Assembly: GCA_001775395.1 (NCBI GenBank) | Contig: MEWP01000159.1 | Span: forward strand, 36,590 to 78,454 | DNA length: 41,865 nt | Direction: 5' to 3' | DNA from: a candidate division Zixibacteria bacterium RBG_16_53_22 | GTDB lineage: Bacteria; Zixibacteria; MSB-5A5; UBA10806 | Shown: piece by piece, positions 10,678 through 14,179 of the stretch | Layout: each line of letters starts with the position of its first letter | Position numbering within the stretch: the first letter of the stretch is position 1 | Program-made: the position numbers and the translations under genes | Notes under the pieces: model-generated | What the model saw: the letters and a program-made list of their open reading frames with translations, nothing else | What the model was told of the DNA's origin: nothing | The model's database searches: none

Positions 10678-11354
10678 AGAAGCACAGGGTAATTGCTATC
10701 GACGGGCCGGCCGCGTCGGGCAAAAGCACGACCGCCAAACTGCTGGCCACGCGACTGGGATTCATCTATTTGGACACCGGGGCGATGTACAGGACCGTGA
10801 CACTGGCCGCGCTGGAACGAGGGATCGATATCCGGAATGAAATTGCCGTCGGTCGTCTGGCCGGTGAAATCAAGATAGACTTCATCCCGACCGAAGACGG
10901 CAACAGGGTGATCCTCGATGGCCGCGATATCACCAACGAAATTCGCACTCCGGCCGTTGACGCCGCCGTATCGCCGGTATCATCGTATAAAATTGTCAGG
11001 GAAAAAATGGTCGCTCTCCAGAAGGAGTTTGCGCGCAGGGGGGATGTCGTGGCCGAAGGGCGCGATATGGCCACCGTCGTTTTTCCTGACGCCGATCTCA
11101 AGATTTTCCTGGTTGCCGACCTGGAGACGCGGGCTATCAGGAGGTGTCGCCAGCTCGACAGCCCGGGCCTCAAGACCACGATCGAAGATCAGATGGCGTC
11201 GTTGTCGTCGAGAGATCTTTTCGACAGCGAAAGGGAGAACTCACCCCTGAAAAAAGATCCTGAGGCTGTCGTCCTCGACACGTCGGGCATGTCCATTAAC
11301 GAACAGGTCGAGAGGGCTCTGGAACTTGTATCCGAGAGGCTTGGGATAGAGTGA
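10674..11354 (+). CDS. cmk: Cytidylate kinase
   Basis: Cytidylate kinase phosphorylates CMP and dCMP using ATP. The 226-residue protein has the P-loop GPAASGKST (11-19), followed by YLDTGAMYRTVTLAAL, which binds the nucleotide monophosphate. Later come the family motifs VVAEGRDMATVVFPDA and a SRDLFDSERENSPL segment in the lid and CMP-contact region. All expected active-site elements are present. It overlaps rluB and plsC by 4 nt each. Confidence 0.96.
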   Translation: MKKHRVIAIDGPAASGKSTTAKLLATRLGFIYLDTGAMYRTVTLAALERGIDIRNEIAVGRLAGEIKIDFIPTEDGNRVILDGRDITNEIRTPAVDAAVSPVSSYKIVREKMVALQKEFARRGDVVAEGRDMATVVFPDADLKIFLVADLETRAIRRCRQLDSPGLKTTIEDQMASLSSRDLFDSERENSPLKKDPEAVVLDTSGMSINEQVERALELVSERLGIE

Positions 11355-11983
11355 GGATATATTATCGAATTTGCCATACCGCTCTGTTCATTTTTCTTAA
11401 AGTCTACTGCAAGATGAAAACATACGGGGTGGAAAATGTCCCCGCAAAGGGCGGTGTCATAATCGCCTCGAACCATGTCGCAGGTGGTGATCCGCCTTTT
11501 ATCGGGGGTGGCATAAAGAGAGAATCGTATTTCCTGGCGAAGAAGGAGCTTTTCAGGAATTTCTTCTTGCGCACCCTGATAGAAAGCCTCAATGCCATTC
11601 CGGTCGACAGGAGCGTGCTCGATCAGCGAGCCATCGAGGCGGCCGAGAGAGCCCTCCGAAACGGCAAAGCCCTCATCTTATTCCCGGAGGGCACGCGGAG
11701 CAAGACGGGCGAGATTGGCAAGGGCAAGCCCGGCATAGGATTATTGGCAAGAAGGGCGGTCGTTCCGATTGTGCCCGCTTATATACAGAATTCCGGAGCT
11801 TTCTTGAAGCTGCCGTTCACGGGCCGCAGGTTAATAATCAGTTATGGCTGTCCCATTGATTCGGCCTGGATAGCCTCTGTTCCCGACAGCAAGGAGGGGT
11901 ATCGTCAGATCGCGGAGGAGGTCATGACGCACATCAGAGCCCTCGGGCAGGCCCGGGGTCAGGCCGCGGAGCCCGGGCCTTAA
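11351..11983 (+). CDS. plsC: 1-acyl-sn-glycerol-3-phosphate acyltransferase
   Basis: PlsC adds the second acyl chain to lysophosphatidic acid at the inner membrane, giving phosphatidic acid. The 210-residue protein has an N-terminal hydrophobic segment (about 5-20), the catalytic NHVAGGD motif (H42, D47, the HX4D signature), FPEGTRS (111-117) for glycerol-3-phosphate binding, and a VPIVPAYI block. The start is GTG, in a GTGA overlap with cmk. The last ~15 residues are Ala/Gly/Pro-rich and probably disordered. The cmk-plsC-rpsA order is common in bacteria; no ispH lies between them here. Confidence 0.94.
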   Translation: MRIYYRICHTALFIFLKVYCKMKTYGVENVPAKGGVIIASNHVAGGDPPFIGGGIKRESYFLAKKELFRNFFLRTLIESLNAIPVDRSVLDQRAIEAAERALRNGKALILFPEGTRSKTGEIGKGKPGIGLLARRAVVPIVPAYIQNSGAFLKLPFTGRRLIISYGCPIDSAWIASVPDSKEGYRQIAEEVMTHIRALGQARGQAAEPGP

Positions 11984-12010: not shown

Positions 12011-12038
12011 TTGCGTAAGGAAAAGAATTATTTATATT
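12011..12038 (+). promoter_or_regulatory. Candidate rpsA promoter
   Basis: TTGCGT (12011-12016), a 16-nt spacer, then TATATT (12033-12038), in an AT-rich tract between plsC and rpsA. The predicted start at about 12045 leaves a leader of about 70 nt. A second possible -10, TATAAG (12039-12044), is less well spaced. Confidence 0.5.
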
Positions 12039-12044
12039 TATAAG

Positions 12045-12114
12045 AATCCTCCCGATGCATTTCATGCGGGGGGCCCCTTAGGGGGATTATCAATCTTAAG
12101 GAGGACATAAAGGA
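12045..12114 (+). promoter_or_regulatory. Structured rpsA leader with anti-Shine-Dalgarno segment
   Basis: Two hairpins abut in this leader. Hairpin 1 spans 12048-12073: an outer 6-bp stem CCTCCC/GGGGGG with one G-U pair, a 3-nt bulge GAT, an inner 4-bp stem GCAT/ATGC and a TTC loop. Hairpin 2 spans 12074-12084: CCCC-TTA-GGGG. The rpsA Shine-Dalgarno sequence GGAGGA (12100-12105) is perfectly complementary to TCCTCC at 12047-12052, which hairpin 1 would otherwise occupy. Mutually exclusive folds, and so translational control, are therefore possible. S1 autoregulates through its leader in E. coli; any similar control here is inference. Confidence 0.5.
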
Positions 12115-14100
12115 ATGTCAGTAAGGAAATCCGAGGGAAAGAAAGAATCAACCAAAAAACCAAACGTGGGAGGTGGTTCCAAGAGCAAGGCCGCTAAGGC
12201 CAAGACCGAATCGCGTAAAACGGGCGGCAAAGGCGGACACAGTGGAGTCGGCGCCGCTGAAATCGAAATGAAGAAAACCCGCACTCGGGCGGCGCGGCAG
12301 AAAACGCGCCGGCTGGATATCGAACCCCTCATAACATCGGAGGAGATCGAGGACCAGGAATATTCGCCGGACGAAATGCAGAGAATGATGTCGATGTACG
12401 AAGGCACATTGCAGGATATTAAGGAAGGCGAGGTCATAAACGGGACCGTCCTTGGCGTCACGCGCGATGATGTGATAGTCGACGTTGGATTCAAGTCAGA
12501 GGGAATAATCCCGATAGCGGAGTTTCCCGAGCCGATCAATATCAAGGTCGGCGAGAAAATTCAGGTCTATCTCGATGCTATCGAGGATAGCGACGGCCAG
12601 CTCGTTTTATCGAAAATGAAAGCCGATTTCATGAGGGTCTGGGACAGGATCAAGGAATGTCATGATTCCGGCCAGACAGTCCAAGGCCGCATCGTCCGCC
12701 GCATCAAGGGCGGCATGGTGGTCGACCTGTTCAGTGTCGAGGCCTTTTTGCCCGGTTCGCAGATCGCCCTGCGCCAGGTGCCCGATTTCGACGCGCTCGT
12801 CAATCAGATGATGGATCTCAAGATAATCAAGTTGAACAAGAGCCGTCGCAATATTGTCGTCTCCAGGCGCGTAGTTCTCGAGGAGGAGCGCGAGAAGATG
12901 CGCGATACTCTTCTCAAGGAAATCCAGCCCGGCCAGGTAAAGGCTGGAATTGTCAAGAACATCACGGATTTCGGCGTATTCATCGATCTCGGCGGAGTCG
13001 ACGGTTTGCTTCATATCACCGACATGTCATGGGGTCGCGTCAATCATCCCTCGGAGTTGGTGCACCTCGGGCAGGAGATCAAAGTAAAGATTTTGGATTT
13101 CGACAAGAACAATAATCGTATCTCCCTCGGTTTGAAACAGCTGACACCTTATCCCTGGGAAAATGTCGAGGAGCGCTACCCGATCGGCACCAGGATGAAA
13201 GGCAGAGTCGTTTCGATTACGGATTATGGCGCTTTCGTGGAGCTTGAGAAAGGGATCGAGGGTTTGATTCACATCTCCGAGATGTCATGGACCCAGCATA
13301 TAAAACACCCTTCCAAGATCCTAAGTCCCAATATGGAAATCGAGGCCATCGTCCTCTCGGTCGATAAGGAAAACGAAAAGATCTCGCTCGGCCTGAAGCA
13401 ATTGGAGCCGGATCCGTGGTTGACTCTCGATCTGAAGTACCCGATCAGCACCAGGGTTAAGGGGAAGGTGAGGAACCTCACCACTTTCGGCGCTTTCGTC
13501 GAAATCGAGGATGGCATCGACGGCCTGGTGCACATATCCGATATGTCCTGGACCAGGCGCATCCAACACCCGTCCGAGGTCATGAAGCGCGGCGACCTGG
13601 TCGACGTGGTGATACTCGGAATCGACAAAGAAAATCGCCGCATCTCGCTTGGCCATAAGCAGGTGAAAAACGACCCCTGGCCGGATCTTCTTATGCAGTA
13701 TGCGGTCAACACCGAGACCATGGGCACAATCGCTCGTCTCCTTGACCGCGGCGTGATCGTGAATCTTCCCGGTGATGTCGAGGGATTTGTGCCGACCTAT
13801 CACCTCAACAAGTCCGATATTACCAAGCCGGCCGATGCCTTTTCCGAAGGCGACGAATTGCCGCTCAGGGTAATTGAGTTCGATTCGCACAATCGGCGGA
13901 TAGTCTTGTCGGTCAATGCCTATTTCTCCGGCAAGGAGCAGAAAGAGATCGAGGAATATCTTGCCAAGCATCCGACCCGCGCCGTCTCGGTGGCCGATAT
14001 GGTCGGGGCCGTCCCGGAGGAGGTCAGCGTGGCGGTGCCGGACAAGGGCGAGGAGACCCCCGGCCTCCAAGAGAGCGGGGAACTGCCAGGCGGTGACTGA
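12115..14100 (+). CDS. rpsA: 30S ribosomal protein S1 with basic N-terminal extension
   Basis: S1 helps the 30S subunit bind and unfold mRNA. The 661-residue product carries six S1 (OB-fold) repeats at about 103-168, 186-252, 271-341, 357-428, 442-515 and 530-602. Repeats 3-5 are the most alike (each with DFGVF-, DYGAF- or TFGAF-type cores and MSW). The first ~66 residues are an unusual low-complexity extension rich in Lys and Arg (21 of 66) that canonical S1 lacks; the acidic C-terminal tail (from about 610) is ordinary. The ATG at 12115 follows AAGGAGGA (12098-12105) by 9 nt. The gene has its own promoter, a structured leader and a terminator, so it is at least partly independent of cmk-plsC. 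Confidence 0.96.
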   Translation: MSVRKSEGKKESTKKPNVGGGSKSKAAKAKTESRKTGGKGGHSGVGAAEIEMKKTRTRAARQKTRRLDIEPLITSEEIEDQEYSPDEMQRMMSMYEGTLQDIKEGEVINGTVLGVTRDDVIVDVGFKSEGIIPIAEFPEPINIKVGEKIQVYLDAIEDSDGQLVLSKMKADFMRVWDRIKECHDSGQTVQGRIVRRIKGGMVVDLFSVEAFLPGSQIALRQVPDFDALVNQMMDLKIIKLNKSRRNIVVSRRVVLEEEREKMRDTLLKEIQPGQVKAGIVKNITDFGVFIDLGGVDGLLHITDMSWGRVNHPSELVHLGQEIKVKILDFDKNNNRISLGLKQLTPYPWENVEERYPIGTRMKGRVVSITDYGAFVELEKGIEGLIHISEMSWTQHIKHPSKILSPNMEIEAIVLSVDKENEKISLGLKQLEPDPWLTLDLKYPISTRVKGKVRNLTTFGAFVEIEDGIDGLVHISDMSWTRRIQHPSEVMKRGDLVDVVILGIDKENRRISLGHKQVKNDPWPDLLMQYAVNTETMGTIARLLDRGVIVNLPGDVEGFVPTYHLNKSDITKPADAFSEGDELPLRVIEFDSHNRRIVLSVNAYFSGKEQKEIEEYLAKHPTRAVSVADMVGAVPEEVSVAVPDKGEETPGLQESGELPGGD

Positions 14101-14122: not shown

Positions 14123-14148
14123 AGCCCCCTGACAAAGGGGGCTTTTTT
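14123..14148 (+). terminator. Intrinsic terminator of rpsA
   Basis: The 7-bp stem AGCCCCC (14123-14129) pairs with GGGGGCT (14137-14143) around the loop TGACAAA. The last paired base begins a run of six T. This is the clearest rho-independent terminator in the window. Confidence 0.92.
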
Positions 14149-14149
14149 A

Positions 14150-14179
14150 TTGACATCAACAATCTTATATAAATAAATT
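14150..14179 (+). promoter_or_regulatory. Candidate promoter of the envelope-glycan operon
   Basis: A perfect TTGACA (14150-14155) starts inside the tail of the rpsA terminator. After 18 nt comes TAAATT (14174-14179), within a long AT-rich run that offers other -10 choices. Transcription would start near 14186, 20 nt before the preferred start codon at 14206. Confidence 0.5.

Follow-up and report, generated by a model that had tools for sequence, protein, structure and literature searches.

The rpsA gene of a candidate division Zixibacteria bacterium is preceded by a conserved and covarying leader RNA that accompanies rpsA only. On balance, positions 12045-12114 of the window (the whole stretch of 41,865 nucleotides that was analysed) are best read as a dedicated, single-copy rpsA leader that acts in cis on the synthesis of ribosomal protein S1, by a route other than the pairing of TCCTCC with the Shine-Dalgarno (SD) sequence. 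The element would presumably be an autogenous translational operator with S1 as its ligand, S1 being the obvious candidate as it is rpsA alone that the element accompanies.

The features of the locus are collected in Table 1. The rpsA product, of 661 amino acids, was identified as ribosomal protein S1 by the models NF004953 (779 bits, cut-off 720) and TIGR00717 (590.6 bits, cut-off 577), and its closest named relatives are proteins of Candidatus Zixiibacteriota MAGs, the nearest with 84% identity. Upstream, 131 nt separate the end of the plsC-like gene from the rpsA start. Downstream of rpsA, a good terminator-like hairpin with a T run (14123-14179) is followed by a promoter-like TTGACA-18-TAAATT and then by a heptosyltransferase-like gene. 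The zixibacterial S1 proteins, in the window (12115-12400) and in its relatives, carry at the N-terminus, ahead of their first S1 domain, a poorly conserved, Lys/Ala/Thr-rich extension, the NCBIfam match beginning near residue 77; this extension could possibly be an RNA-binding tail.

Table 1. Features of the rpsA locus, in positions of the window.
Feature	Position	Strand	Basis
plsC-like acyltransferase gene, 5' of rpsA	11351..11983	+	TIGR00530 95.3 bits, slightly below cut-off 102.95
Predicted sigma-70-type promoter TTGCGT-N16-TATATT	12011..12038	+	TTGCNT-N16-TATATT 5' of hairpin 1 in 9/9 genomes of the order
TCCTCC, exact SD complement, proposed switch strand (not supported)	12047..12052	+	in 1/9 leaders of the order
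Hairpin 1, probable 5'-terminal stem-loop	12048..12073	+	CCUCCCGAUGCAUUUCAUGCGGGGGG; predicted P 0.90-0.98 per pair; adjoins hairpin 2
Hairpin 2, conserved core hairpin CCCC(UUAG)GGGG	12074..12085	+	closing pair covaries in relatives
Single-stranded A/U-rich tail AUUAUCAAUCU, at the position of the relatives' AAUNC-type tail	12086..12096	+	tails compared across leaders
Strong canonical Shine-Dalgarno UAAGGAGG	12097..12104	+	sequence; GGAGGA at 12100-12105
rpsA, ribosomal protein S1	12115..14100	+	S1 models above cut-off; ATG at 12115
In-frame internal SD-like GGAGGTG, rpsA codons 19-21	12169..12175	+	58/117 rpsA genes

For comparison, S1 was searched in the class at E<=1e-100 and found in 117 of 132 genomes, a phylum-level search covering the same 132 genomes. 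The DNA upstream of all 117 rpsA genes was compared, the genomes falling into families labelled f1-f19; the window (genome G000) belongs to f1, and its order, nine genomes, comprises f1 and f2. All 117 leaders entered the analyses of folding z, fold competition, anti-SD complementarity, hairpin plus tail (the census below) and internal sites.

Within the order, all nine leaders had the same layout: TTGCNT-N16-TATATT, a hairpin, 0-2 nt, an NCCC-UUNG-GGGN hairpin and a short A/U-rich tail that leads to the SD. The direct abutment of two hairpins at 12073/12074 described in the earlier note was borne out by the sequence, as was the presence of the second, although its extent was not: instead of ending at 12084 it is better drawn as 12074-12085, because its four-nucleotide UUAG loop then aligns with the relatives. 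Conservation and covariation of the stems in relatives, which the same note had advised looking for, were both found. The f1 and f2 sequences of hairpin 1 are wholly different, but its fold was kept in 9/9 members, and it was more stable than dinucleotide shuffles at p<=0.05 in seven of them (p=0.37 in G006 and p=0.08 in G008), these p values not being independent as the leaders are related. Hairpin 2 was also present in 9/9, with CCCUU and three CG pairs invariant and with a closing pair that was always paired, as UA (3), CG (2), GC (2), GU (1) or AU (1). When the order was aligned with f13, f15 and f16 (14 leaders, five families), hairpin 2 was 100% paired, its closing pair being CG, GC, UA, AU or GU, and 10 two-sided changes were counted vs. 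3.0 in shuffles. Covariation in the window's own group is that of one pair, the closing pair of hairpin 2. The folding energy of four segments of the window gave z values of -1.10, -0.36, -1.94 and -0.66 against shuffles, so that by predicted thermodynamics alone the window's hairpins would be barely beyond chance, whereas comparison with relatives places them, but not the anti-SD hexamer, clearly beyond it.

Two models were made from leaders selected for a common register, R2 with 14 leaders and R3 with nine leaders of f2, f13, f15 and f16 only, without f1. Despite having been built without its family, R3 found the window element as the best match in the window genome (28.3 bits, E 0.0032; next match E 1.7), and the leader was the best match in four of five f1 genomes and the third in G002 (E 0.53). 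Among 20 test genomes outside f1, R3 matched the rpsA leader in seven (G050, G054, G016, G011, G030, G041 and G129), and missed it in the tested f3, f6, f7 and f12 genomes. With R2, of which the window is a seed, the window genome gave no match at E<=0.5 other than the window element. At gathering score, Rfam 15 gave no match in the window or in 20 further rpsA loci, in agreement with the suggestion of the earlier note that this would be a new leader element; the only weak match, to a plant-virus pseudoknot family (15.7 bits vs. a gathering score of 39, E 1.6), was taken as chance.

Across the phylum, a census was made of leaders with a hairpin of four pairs or more, AAU or AAC no more than 3 nt after it, and a position 6-33 nt 5' of the SD. 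It was passed by 81/117 rpsA leaders, compared to 23.2 in shuffles (sd 3.9, max 35 over 100 rounds), 23/117 control windows further upstream and 11/117 coding windows. The window is among the 36 leaders that failed, because its tail begins AUU, off the AAU/AAC consensus. The mean folding z of the 117 leaders was -1.69, against -0.65 and -0.77 in controls. No clear form of the element was seen in three of the four f5 leaders, in all four of f17 and in L116.

The largest family, f9, has a form of its own, in which another stem surrounds the core hairpin and bears a one-sided bulge of ~8 nt that is conserved and A-rich, AAAAUCCA or AAAAUUCA. In an alignment built blind to structure, its 12 pairs were formed in 86.8% of cells, against no more than 52.3% after a shift of 1-3 columns, and two-sided changes were found in 11/12 pairs, with 77 two-sided cells vs. 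30.1. A third model, R1, was trained on 32 of this family's 47 leaders; L028 and L107 were never in alignment A1 (45 rows), 10 rows of A1 were excluded as misaligned or variant, and L088, L111 and L078 were omitted from A4. Over the 132 genomes R1 gave 69 matches at E<=0.1, including 48 strong ones (E<=0.0012), one per genome, which comprise the 32 seeds. All 48 lie before rpsA: 43 directly 5' of a gene already found and five before an rpsA truncated by the contig end, for four of which tblastn found S1 just downstream, the fifth being followed by 47 codons resembling the start of an f9 S1. R1 matched none of the 39 non-f9 leaders tested, and kinship between the f1 and f9 forms is suggested by the short hairpin plus tail pattern that they share.

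The R1 and R2 matches away from rpsA that were inspected (nine loci, L147-L151 and L157-L160) are located in or ahead of unrelated sequence and revealed no second regulon member. One of them, L147 (G014, contig C60 1571-1602, minus strand), has the hairpin GCCC-UUCG-GGGC followed by a comparable tail (E 5.7e-4); it precedes an unrelated ORF of 381 aa, possibly asparagine synthetase A, and may be a product of chance.

The element also stays with rpsA when the neighbourhood changes. The gene 5' of rpsA is plsC-like in 91/117 genomes, and in f10, f14 and f16 it is one that we take, from its motif, to be ispH-like; its stop lies 26-62 nt from rpsA in 7/9 of these genomes, all but G129 (187 nt) and G054. 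As the leader is kept with either neighbour, it goes with rpsA and not with the neighbour or the promoter.

Regarding the mechanism, the window rpsA transcript would start at ~12044-12046, as judged from the conserved promoter, that is, a few bases 5' of hairpin 1, which as the 5'-terminal stem would stack immediately onto hairpin 2 and protect the 5' end. Hairpin 2 and the A/U-rich tail would then offer a single-stranded platform shortly 5' of the strong SD. Free S1 in excess, being an OB-fold protein with affinity for A/U-rich single strands, could occupy this platform in competition with 30S docking, giving autogenous control.

A simpler explanation, which we consider unlikely though it is the best placed of the alternatives, is that the hairpins merely stabilise the 5' end of the mRNA and keep the SD open, with neither regulation nor ligand. 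The position of the predicted start fits it: assuming initiation ~7 nt after the -10 box, which ends 9 nt 5' of hairpin 1 in the window, the start falls near the point where hairpin 1 begins to pair in 8/9 members of the order (-10 box ending 6-14 nt upstream), the exception being G005, in which the arm of hairpin 1 starts where the -10 box ends and such a start would cut the hairpin. So does the strength of the SD before a single gene in high demand. However, the core hairpin is also found in the short gaps after the ispH-like stop (f10, f14 and f16), with little room for a promoter of their own, simple end protection would need neither the bulge of f9 nor the nucleotides conserved in the tail, and R1 gave strong matches of the f9 form at no other gene.

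Two further proposals keep a regulatory role. In the first, which appears quite improbable, the switching is done by hairpin 2, whose 5' arm CCCCUUA masks UAAGGAGG in one state and closes the hairpin in the other. In a short window RNA the arm:SD helix was indeed predicted at P ~0.96, with an advantage of 2.7 kcal/mol over hairpin 2, and the invariance of CCCUU in the order would suit such a role, but its probability dropped to 0.09-0.15 when coding sequence was included, hairpin 2 beat the helix in 8/9 members of the order with the short construct, and the loop sequence was not retained in other families. In the second, to which we give slightly less credit, the ligand is another protein, e.g. 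CsrA, whose motif is GGA, acting at the GGA of the SD and of the internal GGAGGTG. The window has two GGA sites ~70 nt apart and CsrA is encoded in 124/132 genomes, a frequency that makes its presence uninformative as a discriminating partner, yet f9 has CsrA and lacks the internal site.

The switch proposed in the earlier note, in which TCCTCC alternates between hairpin 1 and the rpsA SD as its pairing partner, is the least credible reading and was rejected as the leader mechanism: the six nucleotides are, as claimed, an exact complement of GGAGGA and the SD complementarity of the window leader exceeded shuffles at p ~0.04 (one of 12/117 leaders at p<=0.05), but the hexamer is present in 1/9 leaders of the order, the remainder having at most 3-5 nt of exact complement, its helix with the SD had a predicted pair probability <=0.0017 and was less stable by 5-8 kcal/mol than the fold that keeps hairpin 1, and no enrichment of such complementarity was detected over the 117 leaders (mean z -0.15). 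What stands of that proposal is the structured rpsA leader, with its conserved hairpins and promoter. As for individual families, f18 was the only one with several members to show anti-SD complementarity (mean z -2.02), in the form of CCUCC-type arms, the single f8 leader having z -2.28. In the f18 leaders (L118, L079, L087, L115, L084 and L105) one hairpin arm, mostly GCCUCC, complements both the SD and the internal GGAGGTG, and from these sequences an SD-masking switch may operate in f18.

The preferred reading, a leader acting in cis through S1, has to be reconciled with the strength of the SD, which is TAAGGAGG in 47/117 leaders and at least AGGAGG in 103/117, values possibly biased upward since start codons and SDs were picked by a script that looked for the best SD match. 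According to a review, autorepression by S1 in E. coli is abolished when the rpsA SD is made canonical (PMC10931766). Given this discrepancy, either the zixibacterial platform would bind S1 more tightly, or the leader would mainly promote initiation and stability.

A second conserved signal was detected inside the coding sequence. An in-frame GGAGGTG lies 39-96 nt after the start in 58/117 rpsA genes, which are all the members of 14 families; it is missing from f3, f8, f9, f13 (which has GGAGGC) and f17. Its seven bases are invariant, whereas conservation is 29-81% in the columns on either side and Gly-Gly is followed by a variable residue (G, E, D, V or A). With GGA and GGT representing 291 and 352 of the 1334 glycine codons of rpsA, Gly-Gly would be expected as GGA-GGT in ~6% of cases. 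In the bodies of the gene (57,018 bp, 30 loci) GGAGGTG was found three times, never in the in-frame register of the internal site, and the window genome has two places with the AGGAGG-ATG-GGAGGTG layout, one of them at rpsA. The in-frame site is also present in 4/4 genomes of a neighbouring phylum (the group with L039-L041). Pairing of the leader with the internal site was tried and found not to be general (mean z -0.43 over 58, only f18 being consistently negative). The motif complements what we take to be the anti-SD core of the 16S tail, and our guess is that it serves as a ribosome pause or decoy. A tentative and rather doubtful extension is that rpsA control in Zixibacteria and the neighbouring phylum has two parts, unlike in E. 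coli: the hairpin plus tail leader before a strong SD, and a nucleotide-conserved in-frame GGAGGTG that would pause or decoy ribosomes and tie S1 output to free 30S or S1. The internal site would have been lost in f9, as in f3 and f17, and f9 would have gained the covarying bulged stem instead. Such a conserved site would allow early SD-like pauses to be tested as regulation and not as noise.

S1 is the largest ribosomal protein and is essential in many bacteria, and to our knowledge little has been described on how its amount is balanced outside the gamma-proteobacteria. Among the titles and the beginnings of abstracts of the open-access papers listed, no rpsA leader in Zixibacteria and no internal SD in rpsA were found. 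In an Eisenbacteria-type outgroup, rpsA was detected in 17/20 genomes and a different conserved leader was seen around GGAAAGCCGCCC (L165-L179, among the loci listed), perhaps another class of S1 leader; these 15 loci, one of only 17 nt and some with starts placed wrongly far upstream, were not used here.

Compared with known systems, the element resembles the r-leaders of PMC7247131, as far as the main text of that source goes, in being a conserved, covarying structure confined to the 5' side of one r-protein gene, and a term search of the same text did not find rpsA, bS1 or uS1. Conserved structure lies directly upstream of rpsA (81/117 leaders in the census, 9/9 in the order), its stems covary (11/12 pairs in f9, one pair in the window's group), and it is restricted to its own gene (48/48 strong matches for f9; R2 and R3 for the window type). 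The 5'-terminal stabilising stem-loops of the ompA type are alike in having a hairpin within a few nucleotides of the predicted 5' end, whereas the zixibacterial core element is also found in short ispH-rpsA gaps and has a single-stranded tail that is conserved. Internal SD pause sites share with GGAGGTG the complementarity to the anti-SD core; they are depleted in coding regions in an expression-dependent manner, according to the part of PMC5100845 that was consulted, whereas here one is kept at a single early in-frame place of rpsA. A further parallel is the rpsA translation initiation region (TIR) of gamma-proteobacteria such as E. coli, as both are folded, single-copy leaders just before rpsA with A/U-rich single strands near the start, although the layout of the hairpins differs. 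The E. coli region has no canonical SD and requires a weak one, in the consulted sections of PMC10931766, in contrast to the canonical UAAGGAGG of the window. With an SD this strong the E. coli mechanism would fail, and the conservation of an rpsA-only leader across an uncultured phylum suggests that S1 control has been solved in a second way.
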